From positions 400,760-464,759 of the forward strand of contig NZ_CP141821.1 in assembly GCF_035621495.1 (NCBI RefSeq): a stretch of 64,000 bases of DNA. Direction: 5' to 3'. This DNA comes from Thermococcus sp. SY098 (GTDB lineage Archaea; Methanobacteriota_B; Thermococci; Thermococcales; Thermococcaceae). Below, piece after piece: positions 30,523 through 39,249 of this stretch; the first letter of the stretch is position 1, and every line of letters starts with the position of its first letter. The position numbers were made by a program, and so were the translations under genes. A model generated the notes under the pieces. It saw nothing but the letters and a program-made list of their open reading frames with translations, made no database searches and had not been told where the DNA came from.

Positions 30523-31173
30523 TCATGATTCCGTAAATTCAATCTCTAAATCAACATCAAGTCCTTCAAAAGCTTCTCTTATCTGTTCTTCGAAAACTTC
30601 AGCCTCTGGACTGTTTTTTGGAATATTAAGCATTATCTTAACTTTTTTGCCTTCAATCCTGCATCCCTTATACTTATCCCCCTTAAGAACACTTTCCCCA
30701 GTAAGCGGGTCAATAACCGCTGCAAGAATAAGTTTGACAAATTTCTCATCGATCTGTCTTCTTCCCGTAATAACATCCCATTTAGCCAATGCCTGCTTAA
30801 GTCCTTCAGCTGCTAAAACTGCACAGTGATATTTGATCTGAGGCAGACCTCCGAGCTCCTCCACGATATCTTTAAATTTAATTTTCTTAGCTTCTTCAAC
30901 AGTCTTTCCTATGATCATTTCCGTAAGCACTGAAGCAGTTGCAATATTTGCAGCACAACCATAGCTCCTAAATTTGGCATCAACTATTTTATCATTTTCA
31001 ATCTTTAAATAGAGCTTTATCATGTCTCCACATGCTGGACTGCCAGCTTTTGCCGTGACGCTTGGATTCTCTATTTCCCCAACATTTTTTGGATGAAGAA
31101 AATAGTAAAGAACCTTTCTTGAGTAGCCTATCCTCTTTTTCTCGTCCCATTTCCTGCCATTAAATCTTTCCAT
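30523..31173 (-). CDS. IscU-type Fe-S scaffold with C-terminal extension
   Basis: A 216-residue protein. Residues about 15-140 are IscU/NifU-N: PACGDMIKL, YGCAANIATA and YHCAVLAAEG carry the three cluster-binding cysteines and the adjacent Asp is kept. Residues about 150-216 (ILAAVIDPLTGESVLKG ... EGKKVKIMLNIPKNSPEAEVF) resemble the MIP18/DUF59 fold used in Fe-S targeting, though its Cys is missing. It lies directly downstream of tusA-like and the cysteine-desulfurase-like genes, so this is a sulfur/Fe-S operon. GGTGAG precedes the ATG. Confidence 0.8.
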   Translation of the reverse strand: MERFNGRKWDEKKRIGYSRKVLYYFLHPKNVGEIENPSVTAKAGSPACGDMIKLYLKIENDKIVDAKFRSYGCAANIATASVLTEMIIGKTVEEAKKIKFKDIVEELGGLPQIKYHCAVLAAEGLKQALAKWDVITGRRQIDEKFVKLILAAVIDPLTGESVLKGDKYKGCRIEGKKVKIMLNIPKNSPEAEVFEEQIREAFEGLDVDLEIEFTES

Positions 31174-31395
31174 TTATCTCACCTTTTTTACAACAATTCT
31201 CCAAACACCGTCCTTCTCATCAATTTCAAGGATTTCCTGCCCAGTTTCGTCTGCTGCCAGTGCTATCTCCCCCTTGCTTAGCTCATGAGTTCCGACAATT
31301 TCAATTATTTCTCCAACCTTGGCTTTTCTCAACGCCTTTCTGAATTCATTAAGCGGAATTGGGCATTCCTTTCCGATGACATTGATCTTTATCAT
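31174..31395 (-). CDS. TusA/SirA-like sulfur carrier
   Basis: A 73-residue TusA-family protein. KECPIPLNEFRKALRKAKVGEIIEI has the invariant Cys-Pro-x-Pro whose cysteine carries persulfide sulfur. The ATG overlaps the stop of the desulfurase-like gene by 4 nt and the next gene begins at once after it. It probably relays sulfur between the two neighbours. Confidence 0.88.
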   Translation of the reverse strand: MIKINVIGKECPIPLNEFRKALRKAKVGEIIEIVGTHELSKGEIALAADETGQEILEIDEKDGVWRIVVKKVR

Positions 31396-32540
31396 CTCTT
31401 CCCACCATAAATGCTGATTTCCCTCAGTTTTTCAACGACATCCTTTATAATCTCATATGCTTTTACTATCTCCTCTTCAGTTGTCCACTTGCTTAAGCTC
31501 AGCCTCACCGAACCATGAGCATCTTCAAATGAACCTCCGATGGCTCTAATTACGTGACTCGGCAAAAGTTCTTGCGAATAGCATGCGGAACCAGTTGAGA
31601 ACACTAACCCTCTTAGATCACAGTGAAGCAAAATGCTCTCTCCTTCAACGTAAGCGAATGAAACGTTTACATTATTGGGAAGCCTTTTCTCTCCCCTTGG
31701 GCCGTTGAGCTTTGTATCGGGAATACCTAATAGCAAGTCAATTAGCTTATCCCTAAGCTTTGCCATTCTCTTAGCGTCATCATAGTTTATCAACTCTACA
31801 GCCTTTCCAAAGCCAGCTATTGCTGGAACATTGATCATTCCCGGTCTTATCCCCCTTTCTCTCACATCTCCATCGAGAAGAGGTTTGAGTTTAACTCCAT
31901 CCCTTATATAAAGTGCGGCAATTCCTTTAGGGCCGTGGATTAAGTGGGCGGTAATGCTCATTAAGTCAACATCCAGCTTTTTGACATCAATTTTGACTTT
32001 ACCAAAAGCATGGTTTGCATCCAAATAGAATAGGGCACCTTTATCGTGGACTATTTCAGATATTGCTTTGATATCTTGAATAGTTCCAATTTCAAAGTTT
32101 CCTAAGTGAGTGGCGAGGAGAATTGCATCTTTTAAGTTGCCCTGGAGATCATCAAGGTTGATAAAACCCTCTCTATCAACACTAACTTCATAAGTTTCGA
32201 AGCCCCATTCTCCTAATCTTTTGATTGTGTTAAGAATCGCTTTTCTCTCAATTTTGCTTGCCAGAACTTTTCCTTTACTCTTAGCCCATGCTATACCTTT
32301 TATCGCCAAATTATCCGCTTCAGTTTCATCGGAGACAAAGATAATTTCCTCTGGAGAGGCATTTATTTCCCTCGCTATTATCTCTCTTGCTTTTTCAACG
32401 GCTTCTCTGGATTCTTCGTCAAATACATGTCCAAATTCCCCTCCAGGAGTTCCATATTTTTTTTCAAAATATTCAAGCATTACTTTAATTACCTCTGGAT
32501 CTGGCTTAGTCGTGTTTGCATTGTCTAAATAAATAACCAT
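31392..32540 (-). CDS. cysteine-desulfurase homologue lacking the PLP lysine
   Basis: A 382-residue IscS/NifS-fold protein recognised along its whole length (EIGTIQDIKAISEIVHDKGALFYLDA; GSACYSQELLPSHVIRAIGG with the sulfur-carrying Cys; GSVRLSLSKWTTEEEI). Several cofactor residues are changed. The Schiff-base Lys in the usual SAHKIxGPKG is Leu (TAHLIHGPKG). The PLP-stacking His is Arg (KIERKAIL). The SGATE phosphate loop is SDETE, and the DAxQ Gln is His. It may therefore not bind PLP and could act as a sulfur carrier or scaffold. The start at 32540 follows GGTGA. Confidence 0.8.
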   Translation of the reverse strand: MVIYLDNANTTKPDPEVIKVMLEYFEKKYGTPGGEFGHVFDEESREAVEKAREIIAREINASPEEIIFVSDETEADNLAIKGIAWAKSKGKVLASKIERKAILNTIKRLGEWGFETYEVSVDREGFINLDDLQGNLKDAILLATHLGNFEIGTIQDIKAISEIVHDKGALFYLDANHAFGKVKIDVKKLDVDLMSITAHLIHGPKGIAALYIRDGVKLKPLLDGDVRERGIRPGMINVPAIAGFGKAVELINYDDAKRMAKLRDKLIDLLLGIPDTKLNGPRGEKRLPNNVNVSFAYVEGESILLHCDLRGLVFSTGSACYSQELLPSHVIRAIGGSFEDAHGSVRLSLSKWTTEEEIVKAYEIIKDVVEKLREISIYGGKR

Positions 32541-32604
32541 CTTTTTCACCCGCTTATCACTAAACAAAGACCACTTTTAAGTATTGCTGGACAGAGCTGT
32601 ATAG

Positions 32605-32994
32605 CTATCCGAATAAATCTATGCATATCCTGCATTTTGATGGATCTAATTCAGGATCAATCTTCTCATGAATAGGGCAGAGATAACCTTTCCCAAGCAT
32701 TTTAAGGGCAATTTCAACGAGTTCTGCATGTATCTGGTATTCTGTAAGCTTTTCTTTTATTATTTTATCTGCAAGTTCTTTCAGGTAATGATCTATATCC
32801 TGAAAGTTAGAGATGTCAATAAAACTTCCCCTGTTCATTCTTAAATACCTTGAAACAGCCGATTGGGTAATATGTAGAAGTTCAGCGACCTGAGTTTGAG
32901 TCAATTTATGATCTCTGTACAGAATCTCAACTAATCTCCTCCTAAGTGAAGGATATACATACTTTGAGGCAACTTCGAAAGCATTTATCTTCAT
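32605..32994 (-). CDS. HTH regulator with C-terminal Cys cluster
   Basis: A 129-residue protein. Residues about 8-55 form a helix-turn-helix (LTQTQVAELLHITQSAVSRYLRMNRG). The C-terminus carries CPIHEKIDPELDPSKCRIC, three cysteines and a His that could hold an Fe-S cluster or metal. The mRNA looks leaderless: TATA TTATATAT lies about 27 bp upstream. A copy of the TATGACA palindrome sits between TATA and start, implying autorepression. It faces hcp and is the natural candidate regulator of the flavodiiron/hcp genes. Confidence 0.78.
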   Translation of the reverse strand: MKINAFEVASKYVYPSLRRRLVEILYRDHKLTQTQVAELLHITQSAVSRYLRMNRGSFIDISNFQDIDHYLKELADKIIKEKLTEYQIHAELVEIALKMLGKGYLCPIHEKIDPELDPSKCRICIDLFG

Positions 32995-33004
32995 AGTTGT
33001 TTAT

Positions 33005-33020
33005 TATGACACATGACATA
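33005..33020. promoter_or_regulatory. operator 1 (regulator promoter)
   Basis: TATGACACATGACATA: a perfect left arm of TATGACA-N2-TGTCATA, with one mismatch in the right arm. It lies directly downstream of the regulator's TATA box (about 33017-33025) and upstream of its start, where a bound repressor would block RNA polymerase. Confidence 0.7.
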
Positions 33021-33125
33021 TATAAGGGTTTCGAAAAGAGGGTAAATTTGTCCTTTATGAAAATCAAGACAAAATTTGAGACTTCCGCTAAAACAAGGTA
33101 TTATTTATTAATTTACCAAGGGTAT

Positions 33126-33141
33126 TATGACACTTGTCATA
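33126..33141. promoter_or_regulatory. operator 2 (mid-intergenic)
   Basis: TATGACACTTGTCATA has two perfect 7-bp arms. It lies in the 350-bp gap between the regulator and hcp, about 140 bp from the nearest promoter on either side. It may help looping or serve an unseen transcript. Confidence 0.65.
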
Positions 33142-33315
33142 TCAGACAGCACGTTAGTTAATGTTTTGTTATAATATATTTCACAAAAATTCACTTTTTG
33201 CTAAATAACTGTCGGATTTTTGTTCTCTAAGTTCCATTTACACACGGAAATTTTCTCTTTATGTTAAACAACCAAAAAGTTTTTATGAAGAGAAATTCAT
33301 AGATAGTCTTGAAAT

Positions 33316-33331
33316 TATGACACGTGTCATA
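33316..33331. promoter_or_regulatory. operator 3 (hcp promoter)
   Basis: TATGACACGTGTCATA is a fully perfect 16-bp palindrome. It lies just downstream of the expected hcp transcription start (TATA-like TTTTTATG at about 33280) and ends 14 bp before the hcp ATG. Confidence 0.75.
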
Positions 33332-33344
33332 AAAATGGAGGTTA

Positions 33345-34721
33345 ATGGATATGGCGATACGCGTTCCGGAAACGTTTGATATGCTCTGCAACCAGTGCTC
33401 GATGAGTTTGGCGGGAGGGTGTACTATAAGGGGAGTCTGCGGCAAAGACCCCGACCTCAACTCGCTCCAGGAGGCCCTGCTCTACGGCATAAAGGGAACC
33501 TCCGCTTACTACTACCACGCCCTTGAGGTCGGCTACGACGACCCGAGGATAGGCCACTTTTTGGCTGAGGCCCTCTACTCGACGCTCACCAACGTCAACT
33601 TTGACAAGAACCGCTTCCTTGAGCTCGTCCTTGAGAACGGAAGGGTCCACCTTGAGGCCATGAAGCTCCTCGATAAAGCCTACGTTGAGACCTTCGGAAG
33701 GCCTGAGCCCGTTGAAGTCCCGACCGGAACTGCGGAAGGACACGGTATACTCGTCACCGGCCACAGCTACAAAGCCCTTTATGAGCTCCTGAGACAGATC
33801 GAGGAGATGGGCCTTGAGGAGGAGCTCAAAGTCTACACCCACGCGGAGATGTTTCCAGCACATGCATACCCCGAGCTGAGGAAGTTCAAAGCCCTCTACG
33901 GTAACTGGGGAGGTTCATGGCTCTACCAGAAGAAGGAATTTGCGGAGTTCCCGGGCGTCATTCTGGGAACAAGCAACTGTGTCCAGCAGCCCACGAAGGC
34001 TTACGCCGATAGAATCTTCACCGTTGGAATAGCGGGCCTTGAGGGGGTCCCCCACATAGAGGACTACAACTTCGAGCCGCTCATAAAGCGTGCCCTTGAG
34101 ACGCCGAAGATGCAGGCTTACGACGGCGGAAAGCTCCTCACCGGCTTCCACCACACCAACGTTTTGGCAATGAGGGACAAGCTGATAGAGCTAATCCAGG
34201 AGGGCAAGATAAGGCACATCTTCGTCGTGGGCGGCTGTGATACACCGCACAAGGGCATGGGCTACTACGAGAGGCTCACCGAGCTGATTCCAAAGGATGC
34301 GCTGATACTCTCCGCTGCATGCGGCAAGTTCCGCTACAACGCGAGGGACTACGGCACCATTGAGGGCATTCCAAGGTTCCTCGACTTCGGTCAGTGTAAC
34401 AACGTGTACTCAATAATCGAGATTGCAATAGCACTCGCGAACGAGCTCGGAACCGACGTGAACTCCCTGCCGGTGAGCATAGTCCTGAGCTGGATGGAGC
34501 AGAAAGCCATAGCGATACTCTACTCGCTCCTCTACCTGGGAATCAAGGGCATCTACATCGGACCAAAGCCGCCGGAGTTCATGACTCCCAACGTGTTTGA
34601 AATCCTCAGGAGGCAGTTTGACCTCAGATTAATAAGCGATCCAGAAAGAGATTTAAGAGAGATGCTCAACAAAGGCGTAAAAATAGAAGAAGGCTCCGCC
34701 CTTGCAGAGGAGCTCGACTGA
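33345..34721 (+). CDS. hcp: hybrid cluster protein (hydroxylamine reductase)
   Basis: A 458-residue Hcp (prismane protein). CNQCSMSLAGGCTIRGVCGK binds the first Fe-S cluster. Downstream NCVQQP, GGCDTPHKG, SAACGKFRYN and DFGQCNN provide the hybrid-cluster ligands. Hcp reduces hydroxylamine in vitro and NO in vivo in bacteria. GGAGG precedes the ATG (33345; ATG 33351 is also possible). Base composition is unusual: the line at 33421 is 62% GC, against about 38% for typical neighbouring lines, and it falls back to about 38% after position 34620. This suggests import from a GC-richer relative with the native 3' end kept. Confidence 0.93.
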   Translation: MDMAIRVPETFDMLCNQCSMSLAGGCTIRGVCGKDPDLNSLQEALLYGIKGTSAYYYHALEVGYDDPRIGHFLAEALYSTLTNVNFDKNRFLELVLENGRVHLEAMKLLDKAYVETFGRPEPVEVPTGTAEGHGILVTGHSYKALYELLRQIEEMGLEEELKVYTHAEMFPAHAYPELRKFKALYGNWGGSWLYQKKEFAEFPGVILGTSNCVQQPTKAYADRIFTVGIAGLEGVPHIEDYNFEPLIKRALETPKMQAYDGGKLLTGFHHTNVLAMRDKLIELIQEGKIRHIFVVGGCDTPHKGMGYYERLTELIPKDALILSAACGKFRYNARDYGTIEGIPRFLDFGQCNNVYSIIEIAIALANELGTDVNSLPVSIVLSWMEQKAIAILYSLLYLGIKGIYIGPKPPEFMTPNVFEILRRQFDLRLISDPERDLREMLNKGVKIEEGSALAEELD

Positions 34722-34723
34722 GC

Positions 34724-35209
34724 TCATTCTTTCAATTTTTTAAGCTTTTCTAATAGTTCCCTGAACTTCTCATCCGAAAGATTGCCCAGTTCTTTGGCTT
34801 CTTTTAGTGTTATTGTCCTTGCAAGGGTCCTTCTCAGGGTCTCATCTTTGAGTGGGGTGAAGCCGTACTCGATGAGTACTTCAAGAGCTTCAGGATACCT
34901 CTCTATGAGCATCCCGACGTTTGTGTTCTCGTTTATCTCGATTTCTTTTGCGCACTCCACATCATCAAGTCCTGAAATTTCCTTGGCACTCCCATCGTTC
35001 CATATCCTCAAGATGTAGGCATCTCCAGCTTTTTTCAGCTCGTGTCTATAGCCCGCTTCCTCAAGCTTTGAAATGATACCTTTAAAGGGCTTGTCGCCTA
35101 TTGCCTCGATCCCCTCTCCTTCTTTCAGATCCTTCAATGCCTCAACTATCCTCACAGCGGGTTCCGGAGGGTTTAGCCCCCTCAGGTCCAGCACAGCTTT
35201 AATCTCCAT
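34724..35209 (-). CDS. DUF2249-DUF1858 protein
   Basis: A 161-residue two-domain protein. Residues 1-70 are TusA-like DUF2249 (LDLRGLNPPEPAVRIVEALKDL), without the TusA cysteine. Residues about 90-140 are DUF1858 (NVGMLIERYPEALEVLIEYGF), the domain found at the N-terminus of ScdA/RIC di-iron repair proteins. It probably belongs to nitrosative-stress or Fe-S repair systems, fitting its neighbours hcp and flavodiiron protein. The start at 35209 follows GGTGA. A palindromic operator overlaps its TATA box. Confidence 0.75.
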   Translation of the reverse strand: MEIKAVLDLRGLNPPEPAVRIVEALKDLKEGEGIEAIGDKPFKGIISKLEEAGYRHELKKAGDAYILRIWNDGSAKEISGLDDVECAKEIEINENTNVGMLIERYPEALEVLIEYGFTPLKDETLRRTLARTITLKEAKELGNLSDEKFRELLEKLKKLKE

Positions 35210-35229
35210 TCGCTTCACCATAAACTTAT

Positions 35230-35245
35230 AATGACAAGTGTCATA
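35230..35245. promoter_or_regulatory. operator 4 (DUF2249-DUF1858 promoter)
   Basis: AATGACAAGTGTCATA differs from the palindrome only at the first base. It overlaps the minus-strand TATA element (TTTATAT, about 35242-35248) of the DUF2249-DUF1858 gene. Confidence 0.7.
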
Positions 35246-35292
35246 TAAACTTTGCTGGACATGAATGGGTAGAAAGGTTTAAAAGTATTGAA

Positions 35293-35308
35293 TATGACAT
35301 ACGTCATG
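35293..35308. promoter_or_regulatory. operator 5 (flavodiiron promoter)
   Basis: TATGACATACGTCATG keeps a perfect left arm and five of seven bases in the right. It lies between the TATA box (GTTTAAAAG, about 35277-35285) and the predicted start of the flavodiiron operon. Confidence 0.65.
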
Positions 35309-35321
35309 AAGGTGTGTAATT

Positions 35322-36503
35322 ATGAAAGCTGTAAAAATTGTTGAAGATGTTTACTGGGTTGGAGTTAAAGACTGGAACAGGAGGATTTTTGATTCTCTAA
35401 TTCCCCTTCCAGAAGGAACTTCCTATAATGCCTATCTGGTTGTCGGGAGAGAAAAAACCGCCCTCATAGATACCGTAAATCCTGGTTTTGAGAGGGAGCT
35501 TGAAGAAAAAATAAACGAAATCGTAGATGTGGCCGATATTGATTACATAGTGATGAATCACGCCGAGCCCGACCATTCGGGTGCAATTCCATACCTGCTG
35601 GAGAGGAACGAAAAGGTCATCCTCATTGCAACCGAAAAAGGCGCGGACATGGCTAAAGCATACTATGATGTCCCCGATGAGAGGATTATGGTGGTAAAGG
35701 ATGACGACACCGTTCCCCTTGGTGGAAAGACCCTCAGGTTCATAGAGGCACCTTGGCTCCACTGGCCGGAGACAATGTTTACATATCTGGTGGAAGATAA
35801 GATACTCTTTTCATGCGACTTCTTTGGAGCCCACCTTGCTGGGGGCTTTTACGACGATGACGTGCCCGACCTTCTAACGCACGCCCAGAGGTACTTCGGG
35901 GAGATAATGATGCCCTTCTCGGCCATGGCGAAGAAAGCACTCAAAAAGATCGAGGGGCTTGAGATTGATATAATCGCTCCGAGCCACGGCCCGATATACA
36001 GGAATCCTGCGAGAATAATCGAGGTGTATAAAAAGTGGAGCAGTGGAGAGACTAAGGAAAAGGTTATCATAGCTTATGTCAGCATGTGGGGGGCAAACGA
36101 GATAATGGTAAGGGAGCTCGCGGCTCTTCTGACCGCTGAGGGAATAGATGTTAAGGTCCACAACCTCGTGAACGCGGACATAGGGGAAATCGCCAAAGAC
36201 CTTGTGGACTCAAGGATCATAGTTTTAGCAGCTCCTACAGTCCTTGGGGGTGCACACCCCCTTGCTATCTATGCCGCATACCTCGTAAAGGCACTCAGAC
36301 CGCCCGCAAAATATGTGGTGATAATAGGCTCCTATGGGTGGCACGGGCGAAGTAAAGATTCCCTCCTTGAAGTGCTGAAAGGCTCGAATATAGAGCTCCT
36401 CGGGAGCCTCGAGGTTCATGCGAGGCCGAAGAAGGAAGATTATGAAAAGCTCCGCAGGCTTGCGCTTCTTATTCAAGAAAAGGTTAGAGGTGATGCTGAA
36501 TGA
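35322..36503 (+). CDS. flavodiiron protein (NO/O2 reductase)
   Basis: A 393-residue class A flavodiiron protein. The beta-lactamase-like domain holds HAEPDH (about residue 81, di-iron ligands), with further ligands at LHWPETMF, CDFFGAH and SHGPIYR. The C-terminal flavodoxin domain (VIIAYVSMWGANEIM ... GSYGWHGRSKD) binds FMN. These enzymes reduce O2 to water or NO to N2O. Its stop overlaps the next start (ATGA). It is first in the operon flavodiiron, DUF438, cupin, M24-like. Confidence 0.93.
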   Translation: MKAVKIVEDVYWVGVKDWNRRIFDSLIPLPEGTSYNAYLVVGREKTALIDTVNPGFERELEEKINEIVDVADIDYIVMNHAEPDHSGAIPYLLERNEKVILIATEKGADMAKAYYDVPDERIMVVKDDDTVPLGGKTLRFIEAPWLHWPETMFTYLVEDKILFSCDFFGAHLAGGFYDDDVPDLLTHAQRYFGEIMMPFSAMAKKALKKIEGLEIDIIAPSHGPIYRNPARIIEVYKKWSSGETKEKVIIAYVSMWGANEIMVRELAALLTAEGIDVKVHNLVNADIGEIAKDLVDSRIIVLAAPTVLGGAHPLAIYAAYLVKALRPPAKYVVIIGSYGWHGRSKDSLLEVLKGSNIELLGSLEVHARPKKEDYEKLRRLALLIQEKVRGDAE

Positions 36504-37837
36504 CCGAACTCCTAAAAAACCGCGAATATAAGAAAGAAAAAATGAAAGAACTTTTGAAGAAAATCCACAGCGGTGAAGATGTTGAAAAGCTCAAGGAGGA
36601 GTTTAAGGAACTCTTAAGGAGCATCTCCCCGCTGGAAATACCCCTTATTGAGCAGGAGCTCGTTAAAGAGGGTATCTCTGCGAGGGACATAGCTAAGATG
36701 TGCGACATCCATGTTGAGCTCTTCAGAGAAGCAGTCGCTGGTGCTGAAAAGGAAGAAATAAAGGATATTCCCCCTGGACATCCTCTCCATACGCTCTATG
36801 AGGAGAACAGGGAGATAATGAAAGATGCGGAAATGCTGAACCTCTATGCATCCACTCTCGCAAACACGAAGGATGAGAAGATGAGACAGGAAATTCTCGG
36901 TGTTCTCAAAGGAATAGCCAACCAGCTCAGAGCTGTTGGTTTTACCCACTACAACAGGGAAGAGATGCTCATCTTTCCATACCTTGAGAGGAGAGGAATT
37001 ACAGCAGTTCCAACGGTTCTATGGACAAAACATGATGAGATAAGAGCGATGATAAAGCAGCTAATTGAAATATTAAACAGAGAAAACAAAATGGAGTGGG
37101 AGCAATTTGTAAGTAAAGTGAAAGAAAAAGCCTCAGAACTTTCAAGAGCGTTAGTTGACATAGTGTTCAGGGAAAACAACATACTATATCCAACATTGAA
37201 AGCCCTGCTCTCCGAGGGGGAGTGGGTTGCCATTAAGCAGCAGGAAGAGACAATGGGGTATTACAAAGTTAAGCCCGGAGATGAGTGGAAGCCAAGAGCA
37301 AAGCCTCTTCATCCTTATGAGATTGACCCAACCTTAACAGCTGAACAGATTTTGAGCTTACCAAAGGAAGTCCAGATGGCACTGAGGGGACAGAAGCTTG
37401 AAGGAGACAGAACTAAAGTAAAGAGGGAAGGTGACTTAGAGTTAGACACTGGATATCTCTCACCAAAAGAAATAAACGCGATTTTCAAGCATCTTCCAGT
37501 TGATATAACTTTCATAGACAAAGATGATAGGGTGAGGTTTTTCTCAGGCGGGGACAGAATATTCACAAGAACGCCCTCAGTTATCGGAAGACCTGTACAG
37601 CTCTGCCATCCACCGAAAAGTGTCCATATAGTTAACAAGATTCTCAAGGCTTTTAAGGAGGGCAAAAAAGACGTCGCAGAGTTCTGGATTCAGATGGGGG
37701 GAAGATTTATACATATCCGCTATTTTGCGGTCAGAAATGAAAATGGAGAATACTTGGGAACACTTGAAGTTGTTCAGGATGTGACTGAAATCAGAAAACT
37801 TGAAGGAGAGAAAAGGCTTTTAGACTGGAGGGACTAA
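36500..37837 (+). CDS. DUF438-hemerythrin-PAS protein
   Basis: A 445-residue three-part protein. DUF438 is at about 1-85 (KEKMKELLKKIHSGEDVEKLKEEF). A hemerythrin-like helical bundle lies at about 90-250, with candidate di-iron ligands in HPLHTLYEEN, HYNREEMLIFPYLE and TKHDEIRAM. A PAS domain lies at about 325-440 (HLPVDITFIDKDDRVRFFSGGDRIFTR). It likely senses or handles O2/NO at the di-iron or PAS site; no output domain follows, so it is not a typical sensor kinase. It overlaps the flavodiiron gene by 4 nt. Confidence 0.85.
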   Translation: MTELLKNREYKKEKMKELLKKIHSGEDVEKLKEEFKELLRSISPLEIPLIEQELVKEGISARDIAKMCDIHVELFREAVAGAEKEEIKDIPPGHPLHTLYEENREIMKDAEMLNLYASTLANTKDEKMRQEILGVLKGIANQLRAVGFTHYNREEMLIFPYLERRGITAVPTVLWTKHDEIRAMIKQLIEILNRENKMEWEQFVSKVKEKASELSRALVDIVFRENNILYPTLKALLSEGEWVAIKQQEETMGYYKVKPGDEWKPRAKPLHPYEIDPTLTAEQILSLPKEVQMALRGQKLEGDRTKVKREGDLELDTGYLSPKEINAIFKHLPVDITFIDKDDRVRFFSGGDRIFTRTPSVIGRPVQLCHPPKSVHIVNKILKAFKEGKKDVAEFWIQMGGRFIHIRYFAVRNENGEYLGTLEVVQDVTEIRKLEGEKRLLDWRD

Positions 37838-37839
37838 AT

Positions 37840-38151
37840 GTGATTGTTGTAAAAGCGGAAGAGGCTGAGCGAATTGACAACCCTCATGGGGTTGATGTTA
37901 AAAAGCTGATTGGTATGGAAAATGTCCAGATACTTCACATAACGCTGAAGCCAGGGGAAGGACTTAAAAAGCACGCTATCCCTGTGGATGCCTTCCTGTA
38001 CGTCATAAAGGGCAAAGGGGTGGTTGAAGTAGGGGAGGAGAAAGAGGAGATTAGAAAGGCAACCCTCGTTTACCTTCCAAAGGAGATCTCCCACAGCGTT
38101 GAGAACACGGGAAGTCTGGAGATGAAGTTTCTTGTTATTAAGGTGGGATAA
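37840..38151 (+). CDS. small cupin protein
   Basis: A 103-residue single-domain cupin. The two motifs are GEGLKKHAIPVDAFLYVIKGKG and YLPKEISHSVENTG, with a His in each as metal ligands. It begins at GTG 37840 after GGAGGG, 2 nt past the DUF438 stop. It could bind a metal or small ligand in the same redox-stress operon; the function is unknown. Confidence 0.8.
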   Translation: MIVVKAEEAERIDNPHGVDVKKLIGMENVQILHITLKPGEGLKKHAIPVDAFLYVIKGKGVVEVGEEKEEIRKATLVYLPKEISHSVENTGSLEMKFLVIKVG

Positions 38152-39249
38152 ATGAGAGAAAAAGCAGAGATATTTAAAAGAAGGGTTGAGAAGTTTCAAA
38201 GGCTCTTAAAGGAAAATGAGATAGATGGAGCTGTTATAAGGACACTCTCCACCTTTATTTACTTCACAGGCACCAAATGGCTCCGTCCGAGCCTCCTCAT
38301 TCCGGCCGAAGGAGAGCCGGTGGTTATTGTTGCCAAAGGTGAGAAGGAGCTCTTCATGCAGAAGAGCTGGATTGCAAACGTTGAGGAGTTCCAAAAGACG
38401 GAAGATCTGATGGCAATGGTGACGATGTGGATTGCAAAGAACGGCTACAGCACCATCGGCATGGAGTTCTCCATTGAGAGGGATGCCTACATTCTGTTCT
38501 ATGAGCTTTTCAAAAAGCTTAACCCGGGAGTGCAGATCGAAGACATCAGGGATCTTTCAATGCAGCTGAGGATGATAAAGGACGATTGGGAGCTTGATAA
38601 CATAAGGAAAGCGGGAAAGATTGCGGTTAAAGGAATGAAAGTGGCGATAGAGGAGATAAAGCCCGGGAAGAGCGAGCTTGAGATAGCTGCTGAGATTTAC
38701 CGTGAGCTGATGCTCAACGGGAGCGAAGACCCGAAGGTCTATGTCTCCGCAACGCCGAGAGCACATGCCGAGCCTTTCAGAGACGTTAAAGTTGAGAGAG
38801 GCAGGTTTGTAACCGTGGTAATCGGTGCCGACTACAACCATTATTATGCAAACATGACGAGGAGCTTTTTCATCGGAGAGCCAGATGAGAGAGCGAAGAA
38901 TGTTATTGAAGCGATGGAGGAAGTTCATAAAATCGCTTTGGAAAAGACCCTGCCGGGAGTCACTTTTGCCCACGTGGAAAGAGACATAGCCGCGGTTTAC
39001 AAGGAAAAGGGACTCCAGGATTACTACATAACCGGATACACTCACGGGGTGGGGCTGTTGATTGAGGAAGATCCGATAACCACGATAGTGGTTCCGCACA
39101 GGGCAATGAAAGCCCGGGAAGGAATGGCACTGGCGATGGTGCACGCACCGCTCATGGTTCCGGAAGGTGCAGTAAAGAAGGAGGACACAGTGATACTCGG
39201 CAAAAAGGTTGAAAACGTTACTCCTTTTGATGCTCCCGTGTTTCTTTAG
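38152..39249 (+). CDS. M24-fold (creatinase-like) protein without metal ligands
   Basis: A 365-residue protein with an N-terminal creatinase domain and a C-terminal pita-bread fold like Xaa-Pro dipeptidase. Comparison with M24 peptidases shows loss of metal sites. The first Asp is Val (VVIGADYNHYYAN), and the second Asp in SDxTR is Asn (ANMTRS). The Glu of the TIEPG motif is missing (MVHAPL). The catalytic-region His (YTHGVG) and the last Glu (KEDTV) remain. It is therefore likely a non-peptidase like creatinase, or inactive. The ATG follows the cupin stop with no gap; it is last in the operon. Confidence 0.8.
   Translation: MREKAEIFKRRVEKFQRLLKENEIDGAVIRTLSTFIYFTGTKWLRPSLLIPAEGEPVVIVAKGEKELFMQKSWIANVEEFQKTEDLMAMVTMWIAKNGYSTIGMEFSIERDAYILFYELFKKLNPGVQIEDIRDLSMQLRMIKDDWELDNIRKAGKIAVKGMKVAIEEIKPGKSELEIAAEIYRELMLNGSEDPKVYVSATPRAHAEPFRDVKVERGRFVTVVIGADYNHYYANMTRSFFIGEPDERAKNVIEAMEEVHKIALEKTLPGVTFAHVERDIAAVYKEKGLQDYYITGYTHGVGLLIEEDPITTIVVPHRAMKAREGMALAMVHAPLMVPEGAVKKEDTVILGKKVENVTPFDAPVFL

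Follow-up and report, generated by a model that had tools for sequence, protein, structure and literature searches.

A 129-residue helix-turn-helix (HTH) protein of Thermococcus sp. SY098 is predicted to be an autoregulated repressor of an NO/O2 detoxification regulon, with a cysteine- and histidine-containing tail that would carry an NO- or O2-labile metal centre; we estimate the probability of this whole mechanism at about 0.6. Its gene is an open reading frame with an ATG start (32605..32994, minus strand) and lies in a stretch of 64,000 nucleotides that was analysed as a whole (C1:400760-464759 of the 2.03-Mb host genome, here called the window). In the proposed mechanism, the regulator acts, presumably as a dimer, on the palindrome TATGACA-NN-TGTCATA, which closely follows the TATA box, and the bound protein would block transcription of its own gene, of hcp, of an operon encoding a flavodiiron protein and a hemerythrin-PAS protein, and of a gene for a TusA-DUF1858 protein. 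The C-x2-H-x11-C-x2-C tail would hold the metal centre, which could be either a zinc-thiolate centre or an Fe-S cluster. Disturbance of this centre by NO, O2 or related oxidants would then lead to release of the DNA, and the detoxification genes would be turned on. The computations establish the protein, its invariant tail, the pairing of operator and regulator, the position of the operators and the content of the regulon; dimerisation, repression, metal binding and the role of NO or O2 as the signal are inferred from them.

How NO and O2 are sensed and how Hcp, flavodiiron and hemerythrin proteins are induced in strictly anaerobic archaea is poorly known. The analysis provides a regulator, an exact operator, a list of predicted targets and a motif that is a candidate sensor. 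The group is open to genetics, in Thermococcus kodakarensis and Pyrococcus furiosus.

A palindrome at the promoters of the regulator locus

Matches to the operator consensus, a 16-mer with an NN spacer, were counted in the window on both strands. At up to three mismatches there were 14 matches versus 2.05 expected, and 0 of 100 shuffles reached 14, indicating that the enrichment is not due to chance. All five 16-mers with at most two mismatches in the 64 kb are confined to the two intergenic regions of the locus. When the whole genome was considered at up to one mismatch, we found only four sites of the regulator locus and one elsewhere (C1:634650); the latter lies between two genes whose pairing is conserved but which have no stress link, and was set aside as probably a chance match.

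The regulator's own operator, TATGACACATGACATA (33005..33020, one mismatch), overlaps the TATA-like box TATATAAG, which reads CTTATATA on the minus strand (33019..33026, minus strand), and its end is some 10 bp short of the ATG; the original prediction had placed an operator of the gene's own between TATA and start. The TATA-like box occupies the same position across orthologues. In many of them the regulator's own site recurs as well, at -25/-26 relative to the start, and the half lying over the TATA box is degenerate. Further into the regulator-hcp intergenic region, a second, upstream operator, TATGACACTTGTCATA (33126..33141, perfect), is followed by the hcp promoter (33258..33287, plus strand), whose upstream element TTTATGTTAAACAACC and TATA-like box TTTTTATG are conserved in orthologous intergenic regions, and by the hcp operator TATGACACGTGTCATA (33316..33331, perfect), which begins 29 bp before the hcp start codon. 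The remaining two sites are the operator of the TusA-DUF1858 gene, AATGACAAGTGTCATA (35230..35245, one mismatch), and that of the flavodiiron-hemerythrin operon, TATGACATACGTCATG (35293..35308, two mismatches).

Four genes here are predicted targets. They encode a hybrid cluster protein of the hydroxylamine reductase family (hcp; 33345..34721, plus strand; NCBIfam TIGR01703, 646.5 bits), the TusA-DUF1858 protein (34724..35221, minus strand; Pfam), a flavodiiron protein with ODP beta-lactamase and flavodoxin domains (35322..36503, plus strand; Pfam and NCBIfam) and a DUF438-hemerythrin-PAS protein (36500..37837, plus strand; Pfam), the start of the last gene overlapping the flavodiiron stop. 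Behind them lie a cupin gene (37840-38151, plus strand; Pfam) and an M24-peptidase/prolidase-like gene (38152-39249, plus strand; an open reading frame), both conserved among orthologous neighbourhoods and, judging from the spacing, probably on the same transcript as the hemerythrin-PAS gene. The iscS-tusA-nifU genes downstream of the regulator (30523..32567, minus strand; Pfam/NCBIfam) were also considered as direct targets and were rejected for now, because they have their own promoter without a palindrome.

Three other elements were observed in these promoters. A second conserved inverted repeat, GGTTAANNAACC (33258-33273), is present just upstream of the hcp BRE/TATA and in the orthologous promoters L042-L081, and is probably the site of another transcription factor. 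In many Thermococcus genomes, the element TGGGCANNTNTGCCCA stands before the TATA box in the divergent hemerythrin/TusA promoters (35245-35292 in the window). A related element, TGTCCAGCAATACTTAAAA, precedes iscS (32574-32594) and is the sole perfect match in the genome to the derived pattern.

In most target promoters across genomes, an operator begins about 16 to 37 bp ahead of the start codon, a short way past the TATA box. Since an archaeal site after the TATA box hinders polymerase recruitment, we infer repression together with autorepression as the natural reading. It is very improbable that the regulator works instead as an activator, or bifunctionally, at hcp through the additional site that lies upstream of its promoter. 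Two sites are indeed frequent in hcp regions, one of them well upstream of TATA, but at most target promoters a site is downstream of TATA, where a bound protein would hinder rather than recruit the polymerase, and the upstream hcp-side site may act on the divergent regulator gene or take part in looping of the DNA. The two hcp-side operators are 190 to 194 bp apart in several genomes and 78 to 81 bp in others, for which looping or a second promoter are conceivable reasons.

Regulator, operator and targets across genomes

To define the regulon, 40 neighbourhoods and 128 promoter sites were surveyed, a site being a 16-mer with at most two mismatches within the searched upstream stretch. Seven positions of the 16-mer are invariant (A2, T3, C6, G11, C13, A14 and T15). 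The operator was found upstream of the hemerythrin gene in 34 of 40 loci, and most of the six operator-less hemerythrin genes are second genes behind a flavodiiron gene that has its own site. It also precedes hcp in 28 of 31 loci, the flavodiiron gene in 5 of 5 and the TusA-DUF1858 gene in 29 of 29, where it is shared with the divergent promoter; since one intergenic region is common to both divergent promoters, a single site can enter the counts of two genes. The original prediction had named hcp and the flavodiiron genes as the repressed genes. Both stand as predicted targets, but the most constant predicted target is the adjoining DUF438-hemerythrin-PAS gene.

Additional sites were noticed outside these promoters. 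In two genomes (G022 and G044; L165, L168), palindromes occur before a gene for an 85-residue small membrane protein, near an ODP-type beta-lactamase gene, and these are possible lineage-specific additions to the regulon. In G009, a palindrome variant (L163:3197) is situated between a small gene resembling ferritin-like proteins or rubrerythrin and a hydrogenase-maturation-protease-like gene, both annotated by eye.

Nearly full-length orthologues of the regulator, with 58 to 100% identity, are present in 69 of 94 Thermococcaceae genomes, the named ones being from Thermococcus. Among the 75 genomes that are at least 90% complete, 62 have the regulator and 13 do not. The relaxed palindrome occurs in 61 of the 62 versus 2 of the 13, so that both the co-occurrence of regulator and palindrome and the retention of the operator alongside the regulator turned out as the original prediction had it. 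The two genomes with a site but no regulator are G066, in which a regulator fragment lies at a contig end beside hcp, and G019, in which the palindrome site falls inside a coding gene. Exact palindromes were found in 39 genomes, all of which have the regulator. Fisher p-values for the pairing are about 1e-10 to 1e-12 but are indicative only, since the genomes are related and the values overstate their independence.

The pairing also holds where targets are not linked to the regulator. In G005, about 0.5 Mb separate the regulator from hcp, which has two operator sites (L150), and in G028 an hcp gene with a perfect site (L079) stands next to a regulator remnant, at a long distance from the intact regulator. 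Unlinked hemerythrin genes are directly preceded by a site in G005, G007, G008 and G009. Conversely, G017 has lost both regulator and operator and has kept the hemerythrin gene with its TATA box and ribosome site; the best palindrome match in this promoter has six mismatches. This genome, from which the regulator is gone, shows decay of the operator at a target promoter. The co-occurrence, the unlinked targets, the operator decay and the position of the site downstream of TATA together give good support to an autoregulated repressor of NO/O2 detoxification, and it is very likely that the protein acts on this regulon in such a manner through the palindrome.

Operators were also seen on two contigs labelled as other archaea. 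On L092 (labelled Thermoproteota) a regulator has its own operator and a further one precedes the hemerythrin gene, while on L094 (labelled Desulfurococcales) an operator precedes hcp; both are short metagenome contigs of 5 to 6 kb, and may be either true non-Thermococcales sequences or mis-binned ones.

The hemerythrin gene itself is present in 61 of the 62 regulator-bearing genomes and in 1 of the 13 without the regulator (at least 90% complete). PAS and hemerythrin domains are able to bind ligands or O2. This near one-to-one co-occurrence would suit a scheme in which the signal is sensed elsewhere, with the hemerythrin-PAS protein or a small molecule acting on the regulator and a purely structural tail. 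We regard this scheme as unlikely: being a target already accounts for the co-occurrence of the hemerythrin-PAS gene, and G074 has regulator, operator and hcp without the hemerythrin-PAS protein. Decayed regulator remnants were seen in G027, G011 and G083 (L115, L116 and L117, respectively), where the hemerythrin gene is also absent or broken. hcp is lost more often than the hemerythrin gene, being kept in 46 of the 62 regulator-bearing genomes, and no hcp without the regulator was found in genomes at least 90% complete, save for the truncated G066.

The Cys/His tail and its possible metal

The regulator consists of an N-terminal HTH (residues ~18 to 52), a helical middle and a C-terminal C106-x2-H109-x11-C121-x2-C124 motif, and its sequence ends in ...CPIHEKIDPELDPSKCRICIDLFG. 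Pfam matched the HTH above the cut-offs (HTH_24, 25.7 bits; HTH_3, 24.6 bits) and nothing beyond it, with no recognisable sensor or ligand-binding domain, and no NCBIfam family scored above its cut-off. The AlphaFold model is all-helical with a mean pLDDT of 85.6; in the tail, where pLDDT is 68 to 75, CxxH opens one short helix and CxxC is at the start of another. Sequence relatives in the PDB were limited to weak HTH matches (PagR, E 0.0037), and a fold search likewise returned HTH-only matches (best Z 5.0, DeoR) and nothing convincing for the tail.

From the DNA alone, the Cys-tailed HTH protein had been proposed as a possible Fe-S sensor of NO or O2, a proposal to be given up if the cysteines varied among orthologues. 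C-x2-H-x11-C-x2-C is kept in 50 of 50 distinct orthologous proteins, 49 of which have exactly three cysteines, and the same motif is found in single-domain relatives and in one ThiN-fused relative of other archaea. In two distant relatives (L183 and L184), the histidine is replaced by Tyr or Arg. The invariant three-Cys/one-His motif is the best candidate for the sensor of the regulator: because the protein has no recognisable ligand-binding domain and its modelled chain is all-helical, the tail is the most likely place for sensing. The tail would quite likely bind a metal, and it probably serves as the sensor, although we hold the latter with less confidence.

C-x2-H plus C-x2-C is a typical and common zinc pairing, and a zinc site would fit the spacing of the tail as well as the putative Fe-S cluster does. 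The tail would then be a Zn(Cys)3(His) site without any Fe-S cluster, either structural or a zinc-thiolate redox switch in which thiolate oxidation or nitrosation ejects the zinc and relieves repression. A structural role is suggested by the retention of the tail in the ThiN-fused relative and in relatives whose neighbours are of quite another kind, and nadA-linked relatives without the tail retain another Cys set (PCE plus CxxC). Zinc has a reasonable chance on these grounds, somewhat short of even. Against it, the regulon is made up of Fe enzymes of the NO/O2 type, which would fit an Fe-S sensor, and the ligand that varies, in two relatives, is the histidine, as happens at Fe-S sites whose fourth ligand is not a Cys. 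An Fe-S cluster at the tail is a serious possibility, if a slightly doubtful one. A plain thiol switch is known in the archaeal single-wHTH protein OxsR (PMC9426492), which is in favour of the zinc version. For the Fe-S version, a close functional precedent may be seen in ArnR of Corynebacterium, a wHTH repressor with a small C-terminal part, three conserved cysteines and a conserved histidine, which has an NO-reactive [4Fe-4S] cluster and whose repression is relieved by NO (PMC12343034); by analogy, an NO-labile cluster could be held by three Cys and one His here as well.

Profile searches revealed single-domain relatives both in the phylum of G115 and in further families of the regulator's own class. 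Among these relatives, two Cys sets vary separately. In set A, an N-terminal PCE is combined with a CxxC in the preceding helix; set B is the C-terminal C-x2-H...C-x2-C. In 52 distant single-domain relatives, set B is present in 28 (16 with both sets, 11 with set B only and 1 with set B plus CxxC), and the other 24 lack set B and have the helix CxxC, 21 of them with PCE. The Thermococcales regulators have set B only. When the family is delimited as single-domain HTH proteins of about 110 to 160 residues with the C-x2-H...C-x2-C tail, the regulator falls within it. Relatives are encoded directly beside nadA (L108, L110-L114 and L158), iscS-iscU (L155 and L177) or a SufS-like desulfurase gene (L202 and L204); set A is present in nearly all of these, and set B is missing from four of the nadA neighbours. 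The family thus seems to be connected with Fe-S metabolism, but the connection speaks more for set A than for the tail, since the Fe-S-adjacent relatives nearly all have set A, and with such an extra Cys set in these relatives the family context alone does not make the tail an Fe-S site. A new kind of archaeal Fe-S regulator, in which a minimal HTH protein with an NO/O2-labile tail cluster represses the Thermococcales detoxification regulon while its relatives control iscS-iscU and NadA, is offered as a tentative and rather doubtful extension. This large archaeal HTH family, with variable Cys sets and, in distant groups, members beside nadA and iscS-iscU, is a testable candidate for the control of Fe-S homeostasis.

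Some family members are fused to ThiN. The orthologue profile detected a homologous HTH half in L002 (E 1.1e-9) and in L108:4891-5814 (E 2e-10), the latter retaining CQTC...CSLH...CTVC ahead of ThiN. The former is the host's own ThiN-fused HTH paralogue (L002:925-1836; G000:C1:945192), with ThiN at E 5e-53 and the Cys tail lost. By sequence, the regulator is assigned to an archaeal HTH family that is uncharacterised and to which the HTH half of ThiN-fused regulators is related.

Comparison with known regulators

As the original prediction stated, the regulator is unlike NsrR, NorR, HcpR and FNR, from which it differs in domain content according to Pfam and NCBIfam. NsrR and IscR hold an Fe-S cluster with three Cys plus one other ligand, and in the regulator three Cys and one His are present as putative ligands. 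Neither Pfam nor NCBIfam detected an Rrf2 domain in the regulator at E 0.1. NsrR represses hcp and NO-defence genes (PMC1274295), a role resembling that predicted here, but its operator is gATGyAT-N5-ATrCATc and its Cys spacing is different. HcpR controls hcp in strict anaerobes, with the delta-proteobacterial motif TTGAC-N4-GTCAA (PMC1274295), and this motif shares a TGAC-N4-GTCA core with the regulator's operator. HcpR belongs to the CRP/FNR family and has a cNMP-binding domain, whereas Pfam found no such domain in the 129-residue regulator, the sole trace being a sub-threshold HTH_Crp_2 match (E 0.088); the proteins are unrelated, and the common core is most simply explained by convergence. 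The GAF and sigma54 AAA+ domains of NorR-type proteins are also absent from the regulator (Pfam).

In the open-access literature, we found no description of a Thermococcales hcp/flavodiiron regulator or of the palindrome, an absence that carries little weight with this scope. EnfR (TON_1525; PMC10570040) resembles the regulator in being an HTH repressor of Thermococcus whose palindromic operator, 36 bp long and situated at codh, lies at a promoter. The two are probably not the same protein: EnfR is described as a member of the Tfx family whose C-terminal domain is alpha+beta, and the AlphaFold model of the regulator is all-helical. The archaeal HTH-ThiN regulators, which we take to be of the ThiR type, share a homologous HTH half, and some members keep the Cys motif before ThiN; the regulator differs in having no ThiN domain (Pfam) and in its regulon.

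ArnR, compared by description, is like the regulator in the features given above and in standing outside the Rrf2, Wbl and CRP/FNR families. It differs in being actinobacterial, in having its cysteines far apart (179, 193 and 223) and in its targets, nitrate reductase and hmp. Taken together, these comparisons lead us to classify the regulator as a protein that would do the job of NsrR, ArnR or HcpR with an uncharacterised archaeal HTH family. If the rather doubtful Fe-S reading of the tail and of its relatives is true, this would amount to an archaeal counterpart of the IscR/NsrR family on an unrelated scaffold.
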